This document shows positions 10,569 to 35,123 of a DNA stretch of 35,362 nucleotides, in pieces. Below the pieces are notes generated by a model that saw nothing but the letters and a program-made list of their open reading frames with translations, ran no database searches and was not told where the DNA came from. This DNA comes from a virus: positions 1 through 35,362 of the IMG/VR virus record IMGVR_UViG_3300031886_000016; one strand, written 5' to 3'. Every line of letters starts with the position of its first letter. Within the stretch, counting starts at the first letter, position 1. A program made the translations under genes and the position numbers.

Positions 10569-11517
10569 ATTCTGCATCAAGTTCGTCAATATTTGTACTG
10601 TATTCAATTACTTTATGAGCTCGCCAGTAATCGCCAACCTTAGTCCATTCAACTCTAATATCAAACACTATATCATTATCTTGGACTTGTTTAAAATTTT
10701 TAGTGTCAATTAAACCGGGATTAATATATACTTCTGTATTAGTATTTTGCATTAAGTTTACAATACCTAATTTACGTTTGTGAATACATTCACCCCAGGC
10801 CTGACCTGCTACAAGCCATTTTCCATAATTCAAACCTTTATTATGAAATTCGTCTATTGTAGTAATATGTGAAGTTGTTGGGTTTGTAAATGCTTTCATC
10901 TCATTAAATATCTCAGCAACAGGTCTGTCTTCACCATGGTCACCATATGTTGCAAAAACAATATGTTCAACTGGACGTTCATCAAGAAATGTTATTAGGC
11001 GTTTATATAAATTAACAGAATCAGGATTTGTTTTAACCCATTCTCCGCCCCAACAATCTATTAAGATTATACCAGCAAATGCTAAAGTTATATTTTTATT
11101 GTATACGTTATTAGCAATAACTCGTTTTCGTAGATCAGTACTAGAAAATCTATGATTGCGTTTATTATAATAGTGTTCTATTCCTAACTGTTCACCAGTT
11201 TGTTTACCACTAAAGTCTTTCCCTTCATATTCAACACCTAGTATACGTACATTAATATTATTGTATAATAAAAGAATATCATCTATATCTTTTTCTCTAA
11301 TATATGGAATAATTTCATTAACATAACCTACACCTTTTAGTTGTGTATATCTTTCAACTATAGTTTGAACTGGTTTATTTTTTTCAGGTCGATCAATTGT
11401 CGGATCAATTTGTAATCCACAGATAAGGTAATCACATTGTTCCTTTGCTTCACGTAACATAGCAATATGTCCTGCGTGTAATAAGTCAAATGTACTAAAT
11501 GTTATACCAACCCGCAT
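10558..11517 (-). CDS. Cytidylyltransferase-like protein with an extra C-terminal domain
   Basis: This 319-aa protein has an N-terminal nucleotidyltransferase domain (about 1-140) with HAGH at 14-17, in the TFDLLHAGHIAML context of glycerol-3-phosphate and related cytidylyltransferases, and RFSSTDLRKRV near residue 130 as the second nucleotide-binding motif. The C-terminal 180 residues are a separate domain (LAFAGIILIDCWGG ... LVAGQAWGECIHKR). Its strand order recalls a Rossmann-like cysteine-hydrolase (isochorismatase) layout, but I do not recognise it firmly. GGAGCAAGGA precedes the ATG. It lies between HemB and a sugar epimerase, suggesting nucleotide-activated precursor synthesis. Confidence 0.65.
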   Translation of the reverse strand: MRVGITFSTFDLLHAGHIAMLREAKEQCDYLICGLQIDPTIDRPEKNKPVQTIVERYTQLKGVGYVNEIIPYIREKDIDDILLLYNNINVRILGVEYEGKDFSGKQTGEQLGIEHYYNKRNHRFSSTDLRKRVIANNVYNKNITLAFAGIILIDCWGGEWVKTNPDSVNLYKRLITFLDERPVEHIVFATYGDHGEDRPVAEIFNEMKAFTNPTTSHITTIDEFHNKGLNYGKWLVAGQAWGECIHKRKLGIVNLMQNTNTEVYINPGLIDTKNFKQVQDNDIVFDIRVEWTKVGDYWRAHKVIEYSTNIDELDAEYGA

Positions 11518-12305
11518 AGTTTCCTTGCTCCATAAGATATCATATAATCTGCATCAGCTCTTTCAAAAACATGGTACGTTTCTAATAATTGTTCAGGTGT
11601 AGTAATTGATAACCATTCACCTGATACTTGAAATGCTCCACAAGGTTTACCTGTGATTTGTTTTATAGGCCCTATTAAATCTATACTAGTCATGCCTGGT
11701 TTAACCATTAATTCATCAGCACCATCGTCTGCATATTTTACTGATTTGATAATAGCTTTATCTCTATCTGAAACATCTAATTGATAAGGTCTTACTATAC
11801 CTTTTTCTATTCCCATTACATTACGCCAACCACTATAAAAACTAGATCTAAATTTTGTACTGTAACTCATTACAGGAATTTTACTATTAGCATTTTTAAT
11901 ATTCTTAACAGTATTAGGCTGGCAATCACTAGGTGCAACTGTGGCACCTGACATTTCGTAAATTGTTACTGCTTGTTCTGTTAATAGTTCTTCTGTTTTT
12001 TCGTCATCACCTGTAATACAACAATGTCCATCTTCTGTATAAGCACATAAACAAACATCTACGTTTAATTTAATATTAAGTTTAGCAAGTTGTTGTGCTA
12101 CTCTAGATACTTTAAGAAAATTATGTTTATCGTTTAGTAGTTTATTTTCAGGAATATAAAATAGTAAAAATTCATTAACTCCTAAATCTATATCTTTTTT
12201 AACACGGTCAACAATACCGTTTCCAGAGTCGTAAATACCGTTTTCGGCTCCTAGTCCGGATGACGAAGAATTTGTACTAGCAAATATTGGTTGTATTAAT
12301 CTCAT
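11502..12305 (-). CDS. hemB: Delta-aminolevulinate dehydratase (porphobilinogen synthase), short form
   Basis: HemB condenses two 5-aminolevulinate molecules to porphobilinogen in haem and tetrapyrrole synthesis. Signatures seen: DVCLCAYTEDGHC with zinc-type Cys at 85, 87 and 95; ATVAPSD (121-127); YSTKF with Lys151; and LMVKPGM with Lys202. The last two are the expected Schiff-base lysines. QVSGEW and a Tyr-containing C-terminal segment also fit. At 267 aa it is about 55-60 residues shorter than bacterial HemB and starts directly at LIQPIF, lacking most of the N-terminal arm used in oligomer assembly. Good ribosome site (AGGTAGG). Function could be altered by the missing arm. Confidence 0.82.
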   Translation of the reverse strand: MRLIQPIFASTNSSSSGLGAENGIYDSGNGIVDRVKKDIDLGVNEFLLFYIPENKLLNDKHNFLKVSRVAQQLAKLNIKLNVDVCLCAYTEDGHCCITGDDEKTEELLTEQAVTIYEMSGATVAPSDCQPNTVKNIKNANSKIPVMSYSTKFRSSFYSGWRNVMGIEKGIVRPYQLDVSDRDKAIIKSVKYADDGADELMVKPGMTSIDLIGPIKQITGKPCGAFQVSGEWLSITTPEQLLETYHVFERADADYMISYGARKLCGLV

Positions 12306-28452: not shown

Positions 28453-30693
28453 CTAGTGGACAGTATGTTTAGTTTCCTCTTTTTCTAAAATAAATTCATT
28501 ATCTTTAACATTTATTTTAACTTTTCCACCAGTTTTTAATGAACCAAATAGTAATAGTTTTGATAACGGACGTTTAATCTCTTTATCAATCACACGTTGT
28601 AATGGTCTTGCACCCATTTTTTGATTAAACCCTTTATCAACTAATACGTCGATTGCTTCATCAGTTATACTTATGTCAACTTCTTTGTCTTTTAACATTT
28701 CTTTTAATTGTACTAAGAATTTACCAACAATTTTAATCATTGTATTCTTATCTAGTTTACTAAATGTAATAACCCCGTCAAGCCTATTGCGAAACTCCGG
28801 AGGAAAAAACTTTTTAAGTTCGACGTCTTCAAATTCAGCTTCTTCATTACCAAATCCTATTAGTGTTTTTTCTGCTTGTTCGGCGCCTAAGTTAGTTGTT
28901 AGTATCAAAATAATATTTCTACAATCTGCGGTTTTACCATTACTACCTGTAATAAATCCGTTGTCCATAATTTGTAATAATAATGAACTAACATCAGGAT
29001 GTGATTTTTCAATTTCATCTAATAATAAAACACAATTCGGTGCTTCTTGTAATGCAGTTATAAGTTGTCCTGCATTTTCTTCAAATCCTACGTACCCTGG
29101 AGGTGAACCAATTAGTTTAGCAACAGAATGTTTCTCTTGAAATTCACTCATGTCAAATCTAACAAGTTTTACACCAAGTTGTGTAGCAAGTTGTCTAGCT
29201 GTTTCGGTTTTACCTATACCAGTTGGTCCCATAAACACAAAAGATCCAATTGGTTTACGTTCTTCTTTTAGTCCTGCTTGGGCAACTAGGATTTTATCAA
29301 CAATATCTGTAACAGCATTGTCTTGTCCGTAAATTTCACCCTTAATATTTTTCTCTAAGTTAGCAAGATTTTGTGTTTCTTTTTCTTTAACTTGTTCTTC
29401 AGGAAGATTAACGGCTTTTGCTAGTTCATATTGTATCTCTTCTTCAGTTACAATTCTTTCTTCAACTTTTTTAAGATTAAATCTTGAACAAGCACAATCA
29501 AGTAAGTCAATTGCTTTGTCAGGTAGCTTCTTATCTGCCTGATATTTTACACTTAACTTAATTGAGGCATCAACAGCTTCTTCTGTAATATTAGTATTAT
29601 GAAATTCTTCATAATATTTTTTAATTCCAAGTAAAATTTCTTTTGTAACTGCTTTACTAGGCTCATCAATAGTAACTCTTGCAAATCTACGCATTAAAGC
29701 TCTATCATTTTCAAAAAACTTGCGATATTCTTCCCAAGTAGTAGATGCAACTACTTTAATATTGCCTCTAGTTAATACAGGCTTTAACATATTTGCAAGA
29801 TCGTTTGAACTGCTACTACCTGCCGCTCCTGCTCCACTAATCATATGTGCTTCGTCAATAAACACAATAGTTTTACCACGTTTCTTTAATGCCGCAATTA
29901 CTAACTTAAAACGTTCTTCAAAATCACCTCTATACTTACTACCTGCTAACATAGATCCAATATCTAAATTATAAACATTATAATCTTGTAAAAATTCTGG
30001 ACATTCTTTCTTTACAATTTTCCAAGCAAGTCCTTCTGCAATAGCAGTTTTACCTACACCAGGATCACCAACAAGTAAACAGTTATTTTTAGTTCTACGC
30101 CCTAGTGCTAATGCAATGGTGTCTAATTCTTCTGTTCGTCCTACAACCGGGTCAATTTTTCCAGCATCAACTTCTAGGTTTAAATTAGTTGTAAAAGAAC
30201 GTAATGCTCTAGTAGCCATTCCTTGTGTTTCTTCATCTTCGTAGTTGGCTTCTAGTTCGTTGTTTAAGTAATCTGCAAATTTAGTTTTATCAACATTCGC
30301 TTTTGCGATATTATAGTATGCCCATGATTTTTGTTCGTTCATCATACTAAGAAATACATCAGATATTTCAATACTTTGACGTCCACTGAATAATACTTGT
30401 GTAAATGCTCTATTAAGAACACGTTCTACAGCGTGTGTTTTCTTTGGTTTACCTTTTTTCTTATCAGGGTCAACAACTATAATCTGATCGCAATTTGATT
30501 TTAGATAATGCTCAAGATTCTTTTTAATAAATTCAAAGTCAGCACCAAAGCCTTCCATAATTTTAGCAAAACTTTCTTCACATAGCATAGCAAAAAGTAA
30601 ATGCTCAATTGTCACGTATTCGTGATTTAGTTTTTTAGCAACATCTACTGCTTTATCAAATACTAGTTGTAATTGTTTACTTGGTTCAACCAT
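28453..30693 (-). CDS. clpA: ClpA-like AAA+ protein unfoldase
   Basis: This 746-aa protein has a Clp N-domain (1-145; ITIEHLL-type motif near 27-33) and two AAA+ modules. Walker A1 is GDPGVGKT (209-216) with Walker B1 IVFIDEAH (276-283); Walker A2 is GPTGIGKT (489-496) with Walker B2 VLLLDEIEK (554-562). There is no coiled-coil middle domain, so it is ClpA- rather than ClpB-like. LIGFGNE (611-617) is in the position of the ClpP-docking IGL/IGF loop, so it should pair with a host ClpP. ClpA unfolds selected proteins for degradation. No clpP is seen in the window. The start overlaps the PDF stop region. Confidence 0.9.
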   Translation of the reverse strand: MVEPSKQLQLVFDKAVDVAKKLNHEYVTIEHLLFAMLCEESFAKIMEGFGADFEFIKKNLEHYLKSNCDQIIVVDPDKKKGKPKKTHAVERVLNRAFTQVLFSGRQSIEISDVFLSMMNEQKSWAYYNIAKANVDKTKFADYLNNELEANYEDEETQGMATRALRSFTTNLNLEVDAGKIDPVVGRTEELDTIALALGRRTKNNCLLVGDPGVGKTAIAEGLAWKIVKKECPEFLQDYNVYNLDIGSMLAGSKYRGDFEERFKLVIAALKKRGKTIVFIDEAHMISGAGAAGSSSSNDLANMLKPVLTRGNIKVVASTTWEEYRKFFENDRALMRRFARVTIDEPSKAVTKEILLGIKKYYEEFHNTNITEEAVDASIKLSVKYQADKKLPDKAIDLLDCACSRFNLKKVEERIVTEEEIQYELAKAVNLPEEQVKEKETQNLANLEKNIKGEIYGQDNAVTDIVDKILVAQAGLKEERKPIGSFVFMGPTGIGKTETARQLATQLGVKLVRFDMSEFQEKHSVAKLIGSPPGYVGFEENAGQLITALQEAPNCVLLLDEIEKSHPDVSSLLLQIMDNGFITGSNGKTADCRNIILILTTNLGAEQAEKTLIGFGNEEAEFEDVELKKFFPPEFRNRLDGVITFSKLDKNTMIKIVGKFLVQLKEMLKDKEVDISITDEAIDVLVDKGFNQKMGARPLQRVIDKEIKRPLSKLLLFGSLKTGGKVKINVKDNEFILEKEETKHTVH

Positions 30694-31213
30694 GCGGATA
30701 TTCCCTTTTATATTTTTTTAATAGTTTAGTACGCTTCTTTCTCGCCATATCTAACTTTAATTTACTTACTCGATCGATGTAATTAACACCGTATAAGTGG
30801 TCGTATTCGTGTCCAAATATTCTTGCGTTCCAGCCTGTTAATTCTATAGTTTGTTCTTGCTGTTTACTGTCAAAACATTCTATTACTAGTCCTGCAGGGC
30901 GTTTTATTTTAATATATAAGAAAGGAAAACTTAAACAACCTTCTTCACCTATGATTGTATCCTCAGTTACATGAGTTATTTTGGGATTAATAATAGCAAA
31001 CGGTACATCGTTTTCGTAGCCTTTTAAATCGACTGGAGCCATAACAAAAATTTGTGCATCTAGTTCAACTTGATTAGCCGCTAATCCAACGCCTCTATGT
31101 TTAGTCATTAAAGCTGACATTTCTTTTTCAAGTTCTACAGCATCGTTTGTTTTAAAGTCAAACGGTGCTACTGTTTTTTCTAACCAACTATTAGGAGCTT
31201 CTATTAATTTCAT
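30686..31213 (-). CDS. def: Peptide deformylase
   Basis: This 175-aa protein has all three deformylase motifs: GVGLAANQ (41-48), EGCLS (91-95, metal Cys93) and HEYDH (135-139, metal His135/139 and catalytic Glu136). It removes the N-formyl group from nascent proteins. The length is near bacterial Def (about 170 aa), and it keeps a basic C-terminus unlike the shortest phage versions. Phage deformylases are known in marine T4-like phages and probably help translate phage proteins. It lies between clpA-like and dnaJ-like genes and overlaps both closely. Confidence 0.93.
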   Translation of the reverse strand: MKLIEAPNSWLEKTVAPFDFKTNDAVELEKEMSALMTKHRGVGLAANQVELDAQIFVMAPVDLKGYENDVPFAIINPKITHVTEDTIIGEEGCLSFPFLYIKIKRPAGLVIECFDSKQQEQTIELTGWNARIFGHEYDHLYGVNYIDRVSKLKLDMARKKRTKLLKKYKREYPHG

Positions 31214-32063
31214 TTTGTATTTTTCTTAATCGTTCTCTGATTTTTTCGTTATCAATTTTGGGTGTAAGACCATTTACTTTAATATATAATTTTCCAATCG
31301 TTCTACTTCTCTGATCTGGTAAGCCTTGTTCGTGTATACTAAATGTTGTTCCTGAGTTTGACCCTGCTGGAACTGACACATTTAGTTTTTTACCATGCAA
31401 CGTATCTACTTTAATATTTGTACCTAGTATAAGATCTATTAAATCTACATTTTTATTTACATATAGATCTAGTCCATCCACTTCGTATATAGGATGTCTC
31501 TTTATTCTTATTTTAACATGAAGATCCCCTGCTTGTCTACCTGGAAAGTACTCATTTCCTCCCATACCTCTAAAATTCATTACATCTCCATTTCTAACAC
31601 CAGGAGGAATGTCAATATTAACAGTATGTTCTTGTCCGTTAGGAAGTCTAAATGATGCAATTAGTTTTTTACCTGTGATTACATCTTCTAAATCAATATT
31701 TGCGGCAATTGTTATGTTTTGGTTTCTTTGTTGTTGAAACCCACGTCCAAAGAATGGATTACCTTGTTCTCCACCAAAGAATTCGTTAAAGATATCTTCT
31801 ACGTTTATATTATGTCTAGTATGGAAATGAGTATGTTGTTGACGAGCTTGATGTTGTTGCGGATCAGCAGTACCAAATTGATCATACATTGATTTCTTTT
31901 GAGGATCTTTTAGTACGTCATATGCTTCATTAATTTCTTTAAATTGTTCTTCGTTTCCGCCTCTATCAGGATGATATTGCATAGCTTTCTTTTTAAAAGC
32001 ATTCTTTACATCTTTTCCTGAAGCATTACGGGGAACTCCTAGTATGTCATAGTAGTTGGCCAT
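31191..32063 (-). CDS. dnaJ: DnaJ-like co-chaperone (class B, CbpA-like)
   Basis: This 290-aa protein has an N-terminal J-domain with YYDILGVPRNAS and the essential HPD (31-33), which stimulates Hsp70/DnaK ATPase. A Gln/His-rich linker (70-120) is followed by two beta C-terminal substrate domains (DLEDVITGKKL, IPPGVRNGDVMNFRGMG, LHVKIRIKRHPIY, LYIKVNGLTP). No CxxCxGxG zinc-finger repeats are present, so it is class B. It probably works with host DnaK, since no dnaK is in the window. No clear ribosome site; GATAAGTA lies five bases before the ATG. Confidence 0.92.
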   Translation of the reverse strand: MANYYDILGVPRNASGKDVKNAFKKKAMQYHPDRGGNEEQFKEINEAYDVLKDPQKKSMYDQFGTADPQQHQARQQHTHFHTRHNINVEDIFNEFFGGEQGNPFFGRGFQQQRNQNITIAANIDLEDVITGKKLIASFRLPNGQEHTVNIDIPPGVRNGDVMNFRGMGGNEYFPGRQAGDLHVKIRIKRHPIYEVDGLDLYVNKNVDLIDLILGTNIKVDTLHGKKLNVSVPAGSNSGTTFSIHEQGLPDQRSRTIGKLYIKVNGLTPKIDNEKIRERLRKIQNEINRSS

Positions 32064-32109: not shown

Positions 32110-32427
32110 TTATCGTTTTCTTGGTATTGATGCACCAGGCTTACCAACATACAATCCAAAGAATGCCGCACCAGCACCAACTATAGTTGAGATAAACATA
32201 GCTTGGGCGTTCGTTGGATCTGATAATCCCATAAACCAAGATACTGATGTATAAAAAGCATAGATGTATGCCAACATAATAAGTCTAGGTATTAATCTAA
32301 ACTTATCCATGATACCAGCTGTTTGGTTATACCAAGTATTATCTTCACCACCACTAGCTGGAACTAAATCTGCTTTATCTAGCTCATATTCTTTACTTGT
32401 TTCTTTTACTTGGATCTTGTCACTCAC
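32110..32427 (-). CDS. Two-span membrane protein, 105 aa
   Basis: Hydrophobic segments near residues 47-66 (LIPRLIMLAYIYAFYTSVSW) and 77-96 (MFISTIVGAGAAFFGLYVG) follow an acidic soluble N-terminus and a short basic tail. I recall similar small proteins in marine T4-like phages. It could be holin-like or part of the membrane cluster upstream. Starts at GTG 32427, overlapping the MscS-like stop, with CGGAGA upstream. No functional motif. Confidence 0.65.
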   Translation of the reverse strand: MSDKIQVKETSKEYELDKADLVPASGGEDNTWYNQTAGIMDKFRLIPRLIMLAYIYAFYTSVSWFMGLSDPTNAQAMFISTIVGAGAAFFGLYVGKPGASIPRKR

Positions 32428-32831
32428 TTCTTATCTCCGTTCTTAATTTTTTTAATCTCTTCACTATTATTATGAATTGCTGATCTATTATTATGTGGAG
32501 TATGATCGAAGACAACTTTTTCTAATTTTAAAAATGGTATTCTATCATTAGGTACATAACGCCATATATAGTCGCCATCCCATTCACCACCTGTTTTAGT
32601 AATACCGAATACAGTTTCAGTCATTCCTATTTTAACAATTAAAGCTCTTTCACCATCAAGTATAACTTTATCACCTTCTTTAAATTGCGGGTTTAATTTA
32701 AATGCTATTCCTTTGGCAAGTTTAGTAGCCCAATCTTTAAACCAGATAGCAATCATTATGGATATTAATACTGCTATCCACGGCATTAATACGTCTGTCA
32801 TTTGTAAAGACAGGTCGCTTAATTCATTCAT
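32424..32831 (-). CDS. MscS-like mini-protein: one membrane span plus beta domain
   Basis: This 135-aa protein has one N-terminal membrane helix (MPWIAVLISIMIAIWFKDW, about 16-34), then KLNPQFKEGDKVILDGERA and VPNDRIPFLKLEKVVFD. That order (helix, LxxxxPFxxGDxVxxxG, strands, xxPNxxI) matches the pore-helix and beta domain of mechanosensitive channel MscS. It lacks the first two membrane helices and the C-terminal cage of full MscS. Location: inner membrane. It could act as a small channel or as a soluble-domain adaptor. GGAGAG lies before the ATG, and it follows the 82-aa gene. Function inferred from pattern only. Confidence 0.55.
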   Translation of the reverse strand: MNELSDLSLQMTDVLMPWIAVLISIMIAIWFKDWATKLAKGIAFKLNPQFKEGDKVILDGERALIVKIGMTETVFGITKTGGEWDGDYIWRYVPNDRIPFLKLEKVVFDHTPHNNRSAIHNNSEEIKKIKNGDKK

Positions 32832-33076
32832 TTTTTGCTCTCCAGCTTTTTAATGCGTTTATCCATAGCCTCTAATTTTTCTTTAAGGATAGGAAATTTT
32901 CGCATCTGTTTTTCTTCGTCTGTTATCAGTTTAATGTGGTAACGTTTAGCCGCCCAAGTGTATAATTCGTCTACTTTATTGTAGAACCATACACCTAGCT
33001 TTGTGCCACGGAACCATTTTTCAGTTGCGCCGCCTAAAATACTGCCAGCTATTGCTTTTACAAGAAAAAACCACAT
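32828..33076 (-). CDS. Small membrane-anchored coiled-coil protein, 82 aa
   Basis: No family recognised. A hydrophobic N-terminus (MWFFLVKAIAGSILGGATEKW) could anchor it in a membrane or be a signal. The C-terminal half is basic and helical (KFPILKEKLEAMDKRIKKLE). AAGGAG precedes the ATG, and a GATAAATA promoter lies upstream. Its overlap with the MscS-like gene (ATGA) suggests coordinated production. Confidence 0.65.
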   Translation of the reverse strand: MWFFLVKAIAGSILGGATEKWFRGTKLGVWFYNKVDELYTWAAKRYHIKLITDEEKQMRKFPILKEKLEAMDKRIKKLESKK

Positions 33077-33118: not shown

Positions 33119-33931
33119 TTATGGAATGACGTTGGTACTTCCGCCTCGATCGGTAGGTAATTGCTGTTCTTGTGTGTTATTATTAGTATCTGGCGTACCA
33201 TCTGACGATACTCCTGTTCCTATACCTATATCAACTTGTTCGTCTGGTGTTCCGTTAGAAGTATTAGCATTTTGCTCAGCAATAGCGTCAGCTTCAGTGT
33301 GGCCGAAAAAACTTGAAGATTGTTCAGGTACTACAGGTCCACTTTTATCCTTTATATCTCCAAGATCAATTATAGTATAATCCTTATTAATTTTATGGTC
33401 TTCGGGTAAAATATATGGAACGTATTTTTGACGGTCTTCATTATCATCACCTCTATGTGACTTACCTTTTTTCTTAGGTGCAATTTTTACTGCAACTGGT
33501 TGACCACCGCGACTACTTTCAATGCCCATTAACATCTTATGTAATTTTCTATCATAAGGCATGATATAAGCACGTGGCTGACCCTTATTAGCTGTTAAGC
33601 CTAGTTGCACTAACCAACTCATTTTGTGTTCTTGGCTTTTCTTTGGTATTAACCATACGTAAATACTACCTTTTATATTTCTTTTTGGATTTGGTTCTAC
33701 AATATACGAGCCAACAAGATAATAACTTTTATTATTAGGGTGGTCTGCATACGGAAATCCATAGATTGCTTTTAAGCCTATCCATGAACTTGCTATAGAT
33801 AATAATAATGCTATAGTTATTATAGCTTTAACAAACCATCTAGTTTTAGATGAAGTAATAAAGATCCATAGTATTAGCGAACTAATTAATAGTAATACAA
33901 GTACTAAAAATACGTGACCTTGAATAACCAT
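33119..33931 (-). CDS. Membrane-anchored protein next to the ExbB/ExbD-like pair, 270 aa
   Basis: No family recognised. Two hydrophobic segments (about 6-25 and 34-54) open the protein. A middle domain (55-150) is beta-rich (YLVGSYIVEPNPKRNIKGS, IYVWLIPKKSQ, AYIMPYDRKLHKML). The last 70 residues are Asn/Gln/Thr/Asp-rich and probably disordered. GGGAGA precedes the ATG and it follows the ExbD-like gene by one base. It is probably a partner of the channel pair, with most of it in the periplasm or cytoplasm depending on orientation (not resolved). Confidence 0.65.
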   Translation of the reverse strand: MVIQGHVFLVLVLLLISSLILWIFITSSKTRWFVKAIITIALLLSIASSWIGLKAIYGFPYADHPNNKSYYLVGSYIVEPNPKRNIKGSIYVWLIPKKSQEHKMSWLVQLGLTANKGQPRAYIMPYDRKLHKMLMGIESSRGGQPVAVKIAPKKKGKSHRGDDNEDRQKYVPYILPEDHKINKDYTIIDLGDIKDKSGPVVPEQSSSFFGHTEADAIAEQNANTSNGTPDEQVDIGIGTGVSSDGTPDTNNNTQEQQLPTDRGGSTNVIP

Positions 33932-34596
33932 TAATTGTCTCCCTGGGAATCTAAGCCACCCATAGATTGAACTATTTGGAATGGAAGTTCATTAAGTTCT
34001 GTAATCTCACCGTCTTCATCTACAGTAAATCGTACAACTGTTTTTTCTTCACCCTTGCGAATTAAAAATACTTTTTTAAGATATACCAAACCATAAGGGT
34101 TTAGTTTTTCTATATTAATTATTATAGGTATTTGATCAAAGTAGTCTGTCTCAAGTACTTCGCTTCGTGGCACTCGTCTATATAAATGTACATTTACAAT
34201 ATATTCTCCTGGAATAATACCTCTAATTGTTACGTGTTCTACATTACGTCTAACAGTAACTTTTTTACCAGTTGTAAGTTGTACGGTATCATTAGACCTT
34301 CCTAGATCATCTCTATCTAGGTTCATTAACCCTCTATCTTTTTGTTTAAAGCCAACGACATTTCCAGCTGGATCTTTAACCCAAGTATCAATGTCATCTT
34401 CACTATTATCGGGCCATTGTGTAGTAATAATAAACTCTGCAATTACTTCTACATTAGATTTTTTAGCAACAGGATTTATTAATATAAAAGCTAAAACAAA
34501 AAGGAAAACGAAACCCACTAAGGTATTAAAAAGCAAATCAATGAATGCTATTTGAGAACCGTATGTTCTAATTCGATCAAGTCGAAGAAATCTCAT
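33931..34596 (-). CDS. ExbD/MotB-like membrane protein with periplasmic domain
   Basis: This 221-aa protein has one membrane helix (AFIDLLFNTLVGFVFLFVLA, about 17-36) with an Asp (D20) at its start, the position of the essential proton-carrying Asp of ExbD, TolR and MotB. There is no OmpA-type peptidoglycan-binding domain. The rest (40-221) is a beta-rich domain with DDIDTWVKDPAGNVVGF, LMNLDRDDLGRSND and IPGEYIVNVHLYRR, a pattern reminiscent of DUF2135/YfaP-type sequences. Start ATG 34596 chosen over TTG 34611 because of AGGTACAGG just before. It overlaps the MotA/ExbB-like gene by 20 bases, as such pairs usually do. Confidence 0.68.
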   Translation of the reverse strand: MRFLRLDRIRTYGSQIAFIDLLFNTLVGFVFLFVLAFILINPVAKKSNVEVIAEFIITTQWPDNSEDDIDTWVKDPAGNVVGFKQKDRGLMNLDRDDLGRSNDTVQLTTGKKVTVRRNVEHVTIRGIIPGEYIVNVHLYRRVPRSEVLETDYFDQIPIIINIEKLNPYGLVYLKKVFLIRKGEEKTVVRFTVDEDGEITELNELPFQIVQSMGGLDSQGDN

Positions 34597-35107
34597 TCCT
34601 GTACCTTTCAAGGTCTTGCTGGAGTCTAAAGTACTGGAATTTTAATAGTGTGCTTGTTATTAAACCTGTAAGTGTTGTGTACAACGCAGTAGACATTCCA
34701 ACTGCCATATTTGCTAGTGCTTGTTGAACAGATGAAACGTCGGATATATTAATACCTTTAAACGCACCTGTTAACATTAATATAAAACCAGCAACCGTAC
34801 CAATTAGCCCCATAGTTAATAATACATCTGAAGCGAACCATCCCGTCTCGTGACGTATATCAACGTTTTTAATTTCGTCTAATTCCTTATTTGCTAGTTT
34901 GCTTAATAACCAGGATTCATAACCGCAATGAACTGTCATGCCGTAGAAGATGGACAGGATGAAAAACGATAATTTCGTTTTATCATTTATCCAAAGGGTA
35001 GTGTGTACATCAAATAAAAGTAGGCCGATAGTCGCAACTATCAATAAACTGAAGAACCACCACCACTTCAAGAAGATAGTGTGTTTCCTTATAGCCGGTA
35101 TGTCCAT
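34577..35107 (-). CDS. MotA/TolQ/ExbB-like proton-channel protein
   Basis: This 176-aa protein has four hydrophobic segments (about 14-33, 47-66, 94-115, 130-155). The last two carry the family signatures: LTMGLIGTVAGFILML (canonical GLxGTVxG) and MSTALYTTLTGLITSTLL (canonical ALxTTxxGL). It forms the ion channel with an ExbD/MotB-like partner, here the overlapping downstream gene. Such complexes use proton motive force to do work across the envelope. It is short relative to MotA (about 290 aa) and without MotA's large cytoplasmic loop. The ribosome site is not visible, and a degenerate late-promoter-like ACTAAATA lies upstream. Why a phage carries it is unknown. Confidence 0.75.
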   Translation of the reverse strand: MDIPAIRKHTIFLKWWWFFSLLIVATIGLLLFDVHTTLWINDKTKLSFFILSIFYGMTVHCGYESWLLSKLANKELDEIKNVDIRHETGWFASDVLLTMGLIGTVAGFILMLTGAFKGINISDVSSVQQALANMAVGMSTALYTTLTGLITSTLLKFQYFRLQQDLERYRNEISST

Positions 35108-35115
35108 GACAATAG

Positions 35116-35123
35116 TATTTAGT
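35116..35123 (-). promoter_or_regulatory. Possible late-promoter-like element ACTAAATA
   Basis: ACTAAATA on the minus strand ends eight bases before the ATG of the MotA/ExbB-like gene. It matches six of eight bases of the T4 late consensus. The surrounding 35108-35192 gap has no gene, but a terminator-like hairpin lies immediately upstream, so a promoter here would be logical. Weak evidence. Confidence 0.35.

Follow-up and report, generated by a model that had tools for sequence, protein, structure and literature searches.

A conserved three-gene unit of tailed phages predicted to encode a MotA/ExbB-type ion-channel pair and a third membrane protein

What could a phage gain from genes that resemble those of the ion-powered motors of the bacterial envelope? 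The question is raised by a 35-kb virus record, IMGVR_UViG_3300031886_000016 (35,362 nt; this whole stretch was analysed and is referred to as the window), at the right end of which three genes form an operon on the minus strand. A first-pass annotation had described them as a phage-encoded MotA/ExbB-type channel pair with a third membrane protein. The window is T4-like, as its DNA polymerase matches the profile phrog_262 with an E-value of 5e-198, and its source is a T4-like virus of marine bacteria. Contamination with host DNA or a misclassified bacterial operon was ruled out by this T4-type polymerase, by the presence of Gp23 in eight of the ten large viral carrier records, and by the bacterial carriers, which are rare and nested among phage sequences. 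The minus strand of the window also encodes a delta-aminolevulinic acid dehydratase (11502-12305; PF00490, E 2.5e-44), an enzyme of haem/tetrapyrrole biosynthesis, and a proteostasis set in which the genes for a ClpB/ClpC-type AAA+ protein, a peptide deformylase and DnaJ adjoin each other (28453-32063).

Gene 1 (34577..35107, minus strand) encodes an ExbB/MotA/TolQ-like channel subunit of 176 aa. The motifs GLIGTVAGF and ALYTTLTGL, from which this assignment had been drawn, are present, the protein matches PF01618 with 37.7 bits (cut-off 22.9; E 2.1e-9), and all 41 gene-1 homologs match the same family at E <= 0.01, confirming the assignment. The best PDB profile matches were MotA, TolQ and ExbB (E 0.05-1), with the GT and ATAIGL motifs aligned, while no confident PHROG match was obtained for gene 1 of the window and none in the phage collection. 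The protein has four apparent membrane segments, two of which were called by a simple hydropathy scan, with a cytoplasmic loop of about 22 aa and almost no cytoplasmic domain; with that topology, it would be smaller than the known ring proteins. Among relatives, the length ranges from about 140 to 230 aa and mostly falls between 145 and 190 aa. In ExbBD, the residues Asp25, Thr148 and Thr181 are essential (review PMC12905483). The equivalents of both threonines are retained in gene 1, T104 (Thr148) in 63 of 64 sequences and T145 (Thr181) also in 63 of 64, the remaining one carrying a serine, with the register to ExbB taken from a profile alignment of weak E-values and from motif comparison. 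In addition, an aspartate ahead of the second helix, D42, is invariant (64/64) and looks like a signature of this gene-1 group; to our knowledge, an aspartate at this position is not among the essential residues of ExbB or MotA.

Gene 2 (33931..34596, minus strand), which shares 20 bases with gene 1 as had been stated and as the coordinates confirm, encodes a putative ExbD/MotB-like axle subunit of 221 aa counted from the ATG. The AlphaFold2 model (mean pLDDT 86.2) consists of one helix at residues 13-40 and a beta-sandwich at 55-202. The proposed Asp20 at the start of the membrane helix is real: it lies inside the predicted helix and is kept in all 69 distinct gene-2 proteins, including the very divergent ones of Rhizobium phages. 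Across the whole 41-sequence alignment of gene 2, 19 positions are invariant, the majority of them in the beta-sandwich domain, and the invariant acidic and Asn residues of this domain (D68, D70, D96, D97, N102, D103, N118 and E120) suggest a putative metal or glycan site. A fold search with the beta-sandwich returned 2qng, a structure of unknown function, as the best PDB match (E 1.7e-4), and ExbD, TolR or OmpA folds were not among the 50 PDB matches listed for gene 2. A search of viral structures gave weak beta-sandwich matches only, e.g., to an uncharacterised Cellulophaga phage protein. That the partner has no OmpA-like peptidoglycan-binding domain was borne out, as none was recognised by Pfam, by PADLOC or among the fold matches listed. 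The identification of the beta domain as DUF2135-like (PF09906) was rejected, since it amounted to a sub-threshold hint in 2 of 41 members with a best E-value of 0.043. For genes 2 and 3, no confident family assignment was obtained from Pfam, PHROG or NCBIfam.

No match to PF02472 (ExbD/TolR) was found in an hmmscan of 41 gene-2 members, hhalign of the gene-2 profile against 29 bacterial ExbD-family sequences was not significant, and the PF02472 hits that exist in the Desulfobacterales-related class do not include the trio gene of G002; a canonical ExbD is not supported by these results. A comparison of the N-terminal profiles placed both aspartates in register, FIDLLFNTLVGF over LVDVMLVLLIIF, with an E-value of 0.08. 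Gene 2 is thus best described as ExbD-like by layout and residue but not by family, a putative functional analogue; of the ExbD/MotB-like partner proposed initially, the layout and the aspartate stood, while membership of the ExbD family could not be recognised. The aspartate and the two threonines persist while the rest of the proteins diverges, a pattern that speaks for a working ion path and against a decoy.

Gene 3 (33119..33931, minus strand) overlaps gene 2 by one base and encodes a two-helix membrane protein of 270 aa. AlphaFold2 predicted helices at 3-26 and 32-57 and a small alpha/beta domain at about 60-150, with a pLDDT of 66 overall and higher values within 60-150, and the fold had no PDB match. 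The earlier description as a membrane-anchored protein of 270 aa was right as to the membrane and the length but too narrow, as two helices and an alpha/beta domain are more than an anchor. Judging by its basic residues, the short loop is probably cytoplasmic, which would put both termini in the periplasm. A low-complexity tail rich in Ser, Thr, Asn and Gln is confined to the rows of the window clade in the alignment.

The three genes, referred to as the trio, are no curiosity of the window, a possibility ruled out by more than 100 distinct loci. Scans with growing alignments identified 12, 13, 135 and then at least 250 gene-2 relatives in viral contigs, and carriers of the trio comprise hundreds of related virus fragments as well as some cultured Rhizobium phages. 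Conservation and synteny, put forward early on as a check of the pair, were found to be pronounced: a set of 126 distinct gene-2 homologs had gene 1 directly upstream in 116 of the 120 cases with room for it and gene 3 directly downstream in 120 of 124, which is well beyond chance. Across loci, the start and stop codons within the trio mostly overlap or abut. The neighbours differ by locus and include capsid gp23 and tail tube, UvsW, DNA polymerase, Hsp20/ClpS/SbmA, or a lysis cassette, and no constant fourth gene was present among the neighbourhoods examined. Together with the PF01618 matches and the invariant aspartate, the retained order supports a widespread conserved unit with a predicted phage-encoded MotA/ExbB-type ion-channel pair and a third membrane protein, and the central claim of the first-pass annotation is thereby upheld. 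In related phages, genes for Hsp20, ClpS, ClpX-like and ClpP-like proteins occur near the trio. A phage SbmA/BacA peptide transporter is encoded in 25 of 83 neighbourhoods, e.g., at L006:4721-5692 (PF05992, E 9e-133; NF009036 above cut-off); the literature searched contained no description of such a transporter being encoded by a phage.

T4-like carrier contigs span about 200-527 kb, with the largest records at 328, 343 and 527 kb, and gene 2 was single-copy in all ten carrier records searched. Among annotated phages, gene-2 matches occurred solely in 27 cultured Rhizobium/Sinorhizobium records, including P10VF and 16-3, with E-values of 1e-41 to 1e-50 for the phages of 68-171 kb and of 1e-18 to 1e-20 for the 16-3 type. 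All 27 are annotated as 'hypothetical protein' or by locus name only, with no function assigned. The same order of the trio was seen in all five records examined for gene order, i.e., P10VF (P10VF_191-193), RHph_I1_18 (genes 122-124), RHph_N3_13 (genes 063-065), 16-3 (p038/p040/p042) and AP-16-3. One small extra gene lies between genes 2 and 3 in the 16-3 type, and a further one between genes 1 and 2 in 16-3 itself; the ring protein of Rhizobium phages is shorter, with 138-147 aa. Trio-bearing Rhizobium phages also encode a trypsin-like, possibly periplasmic protease close by (L097:5148-6047, L100:8480-9172). In bacteria, a single scan of 84,980 species genomes yielded three MAG loci only, labelled Deltaproteobacteria or Desulfobacterales, and a sample of 291 genomes of the same class gave two strong gene-2 matches, both already known, and none further. 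The two complete bacterial sequences, L031 and L014, are placed among phage rows with good support in the gene-2 tree; the tree is unrooted and gives no direction of transfer between phages and bacteria.

Based on these features, we consider it quite likely that the trio is a motor. In the proposed 5:2 arrangement, a pentameric ring of the ExbB-like protein would sit in the inner membrane of the host and enclose a dimer of the one-helix protein. Protons (or Na+) would pass D20 and the ring threonines T104 and T145, and this flow may turn or tilt the axle. The C-terminal domains of the axle and of the third protein would be placed in the periplasm, where the beta-sandwich, partnered or anchored by the third protein, could perform mechanical work on the envelope. 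The likeness to ExbBD/TolQR lies in the PF01618 ring protein, in the equivalents of the essential threonines, in the adjacent genes and in a one-helix partner whose Asp, close to the helix start, is aligned in the comparison of N-terminal profiles (FIDLL vs PFVDVM). However, the ring protein of the trio, at about 140-230 aa, has almost no cytoplasmic domain, its partner has a beta-sandwich where ExbD and TolR have their small domain, with no significant PF02472 match, a two-helix third protein takes the place of TonB/TolA, and the genes are carried by phages. With MotAB/PomAB, the trio shares an apparent four-helix ring protein, as judged from the sequence, and a MotB-type Asp, and MotA and PomA were among the top weak PDB matches, but it lacks the torque-generating cytoplasmic domain and no OmpA-like domain for binding peptidoglycan was recognised. 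Comparable in layout is GldLM of gliding and type IX secretion, a 5:2 motor whose inner partner has periplasmic domains of its own and is not a peptidoglycan-binding MotB (PMC9389320). GldM, in turn, is much longer and has four periplasmic domains (PMC9389320), and an obvious homology to MotAB is missing from GldLM, while gene 1 does match PF01618.

When the trio is expressed is suggested by a T4-type late-promoter-like box, CTAAATA, at 35116..35122 (minus strand), the first base of which is 15 nt upstream of the gene-1 start codon. No other CTAAATA on the window's coding strand is placed just ahead of a gene. The late promoter is TATAAATA in T4, and the consensus in cyanophage S-PM2 is NATAAATA (PMC2984593). 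Upstream of gene 1, NTAAATA was found in 40 of 61 loci as compared to 13 expected from mononucleotide shuffles; with relatives collapsed, it occurred in 10 of 28 gene-1 clusters (a count that may be off by one, the window row having entered on the wrong strand) vs 47 of 339 other gene starts (p 0.005), and it was rare before genes 2 and 3 (2 of 46 starts). The box makes late expression of the trio likely, and the motor would probably be made late in infection. A phage-borne 5:2-type ion motor acting late on the envelope in a broad sense is, on balance, the reading we favour. A more specific role, the late remodelling or weakening of peptidoglycan or the outer membrane that would help to finish the lytic cycle, is proposed only tentatively.

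Which late step might be served depends in part on genomic position. The genes that immediately precede the trio in the window clade encode an endolysin of the GH108 family (PF05838) and two spanins, an Rz-like inner one (phrog_739) and an outer one (phrog_812). The window itself holds the C-terminal part of the latter, an Rz1-like lipoprotein cut by the contig end (35193..35360, minus strand), which is near-identical to the C-terminus of L005:7528-7914, a match to the Rz-like spanin profile phrog_812 with an E-value of 1.2e-10. Inside the lysis cassette of the same locus, an acyl-carrier-protein-like gene (L005:6880-7107; PF00550) is situated between endolysin and spanins. Downstream of the trio, three small genes of 82, 135 and 105 aa (32110..33076, minus strand) accompany it in the window clade only. 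The 105-aa protein, which matches phrog_10198 (unknown) and has apparent helices, could be a candidate holin. The 135-aa protein (32424-32831, minus strand) has one helix and a soluble part that by eye resembles the MscS beta domain, with no Pfam match. In the five records with an identifiable outer spanin outside this clade (G005, G007, G013, G014 and G018), the distance between spanin and trio is about 20-250 kb. The trio is thus linked to lysis genes in the window clade only, and a lysis module as a general rule found no support outside that clade; the role in lysis timing that had been suggested at first fits the position in the window's own clade but not that in other genomes. In phage 16-3, a stretch has been described as genetically silent (PMC10460002), and the trio homologs appear to be positioned within it, a few kb from the immunity locus immX. 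This placement argues against an essential lysis function and suggests an accessory one.

Next after late envelope work we rank superinfection exclusion, which we regard as unlikely. A phage-owned, Zorya-like motor or channel would act on the envelope of the infected cell so that competitors could not adsorb, inject their DNA or be taken up through Ton/Tol, as could be expected of a self-contained accessory module of three genes with changing neighbours, located in the temperate phage 16-3 close to immX and in a silent region. Like ZorAB, the trio has a MotA/ExbB-type ring protein, and ZorA profiles were among the better matches of gene-1 homologs (E 1e-5 to 2e-7). However, these matches cover the channel segment only of a 176-aa protein, and the similarity is at the level of the family, as it likewise is to TolQ and PomA. 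The trio has neither the long ZorA tail nor the OmpA domain of ZorB, a phage carries it rather than being its target, and no ZorC/D or ZorE effectors were recognised among the neighbours examined; a Zorya identity was rejected on these grounds. Exclusion proteins are usually made early, whereas many T4-like carriers have a late-type promoter before the trio.

Still less probable, in our view, is that the channel simply leaks and so dissipates the host proton motive force, setting off or timing lysis in the manner of a holin, with the periplasmic domains acting only as its gate. Collapse of the proton motive force is the trigger in known holin systems, and both the endolysin and spanins next to the trio in the window clade and the late-promoter-like box would agree with such a leak. 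However, the strongly conserved beta-sandwich of about 150 aa and the conserved third protein would be needless for it, the trio lies away from lysis genes elsewhere, and the 105-aa neighbour is the better holin candidate.

Two further explanations appear very improbable. In one, the subunits would be decoys that enter mixed complexes with the ExbBD, TolQR or ZorAB motors of the host and poison them. The trio shares a fold family with those motors, and hosts encode a canonical ExbD, as seen for the Desulfobacterales-related class, but a decoy has no need for the proton-carrying Asp (69/69), both ring threonines, a private axle and a third protein. An auxiliary gene set of host type that powers nutrient or peptide uptake during infection would be in line with the SbmA/BacA gene, which at most of the 25 loci having one is found 2-5 genes downstream, but that gene is near the trio in just part of the carriers, no TonB-like or receptor gene was recognised beside the trio, and few canonical relatives occur in bacteria, with 2 strong matches among 291 genomes.

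A phage-borne motor for late envelope action would extend what is described of this family. The reviews consulted on 5:2 motors name flagellar, Ton, Tol, gliding and Zorya members only, and no publication on a phage-encoded ExbB/ExbD-type motor was found in the open-licence literature; as far as we found, the family has been described in bacteria and apparently not in viruses. We know of no model of phage infection in which the membrane energy of the host is spent on mechanical work at the envelope, which is what viruses would be doing if the proposed function is true. The conserved trio sits among phage hypothetical proteins that have no assigned function, and since cultured Rhizobium phages, the classic temperate phage 16-3 among them, carry homologs, the question can be addressed directly in the laboratory. 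Tailed phages, both T4-like large ones and unrelated phages of Rhizobium, would then, more probably than not, own a class of ion-driven envelope motor with a minimal ring, an axle whose periplasmic beta-sandwich head is new and a dedicated third subunit, which would spend the proton motive force of the host on an as yet undescribed step of infection.
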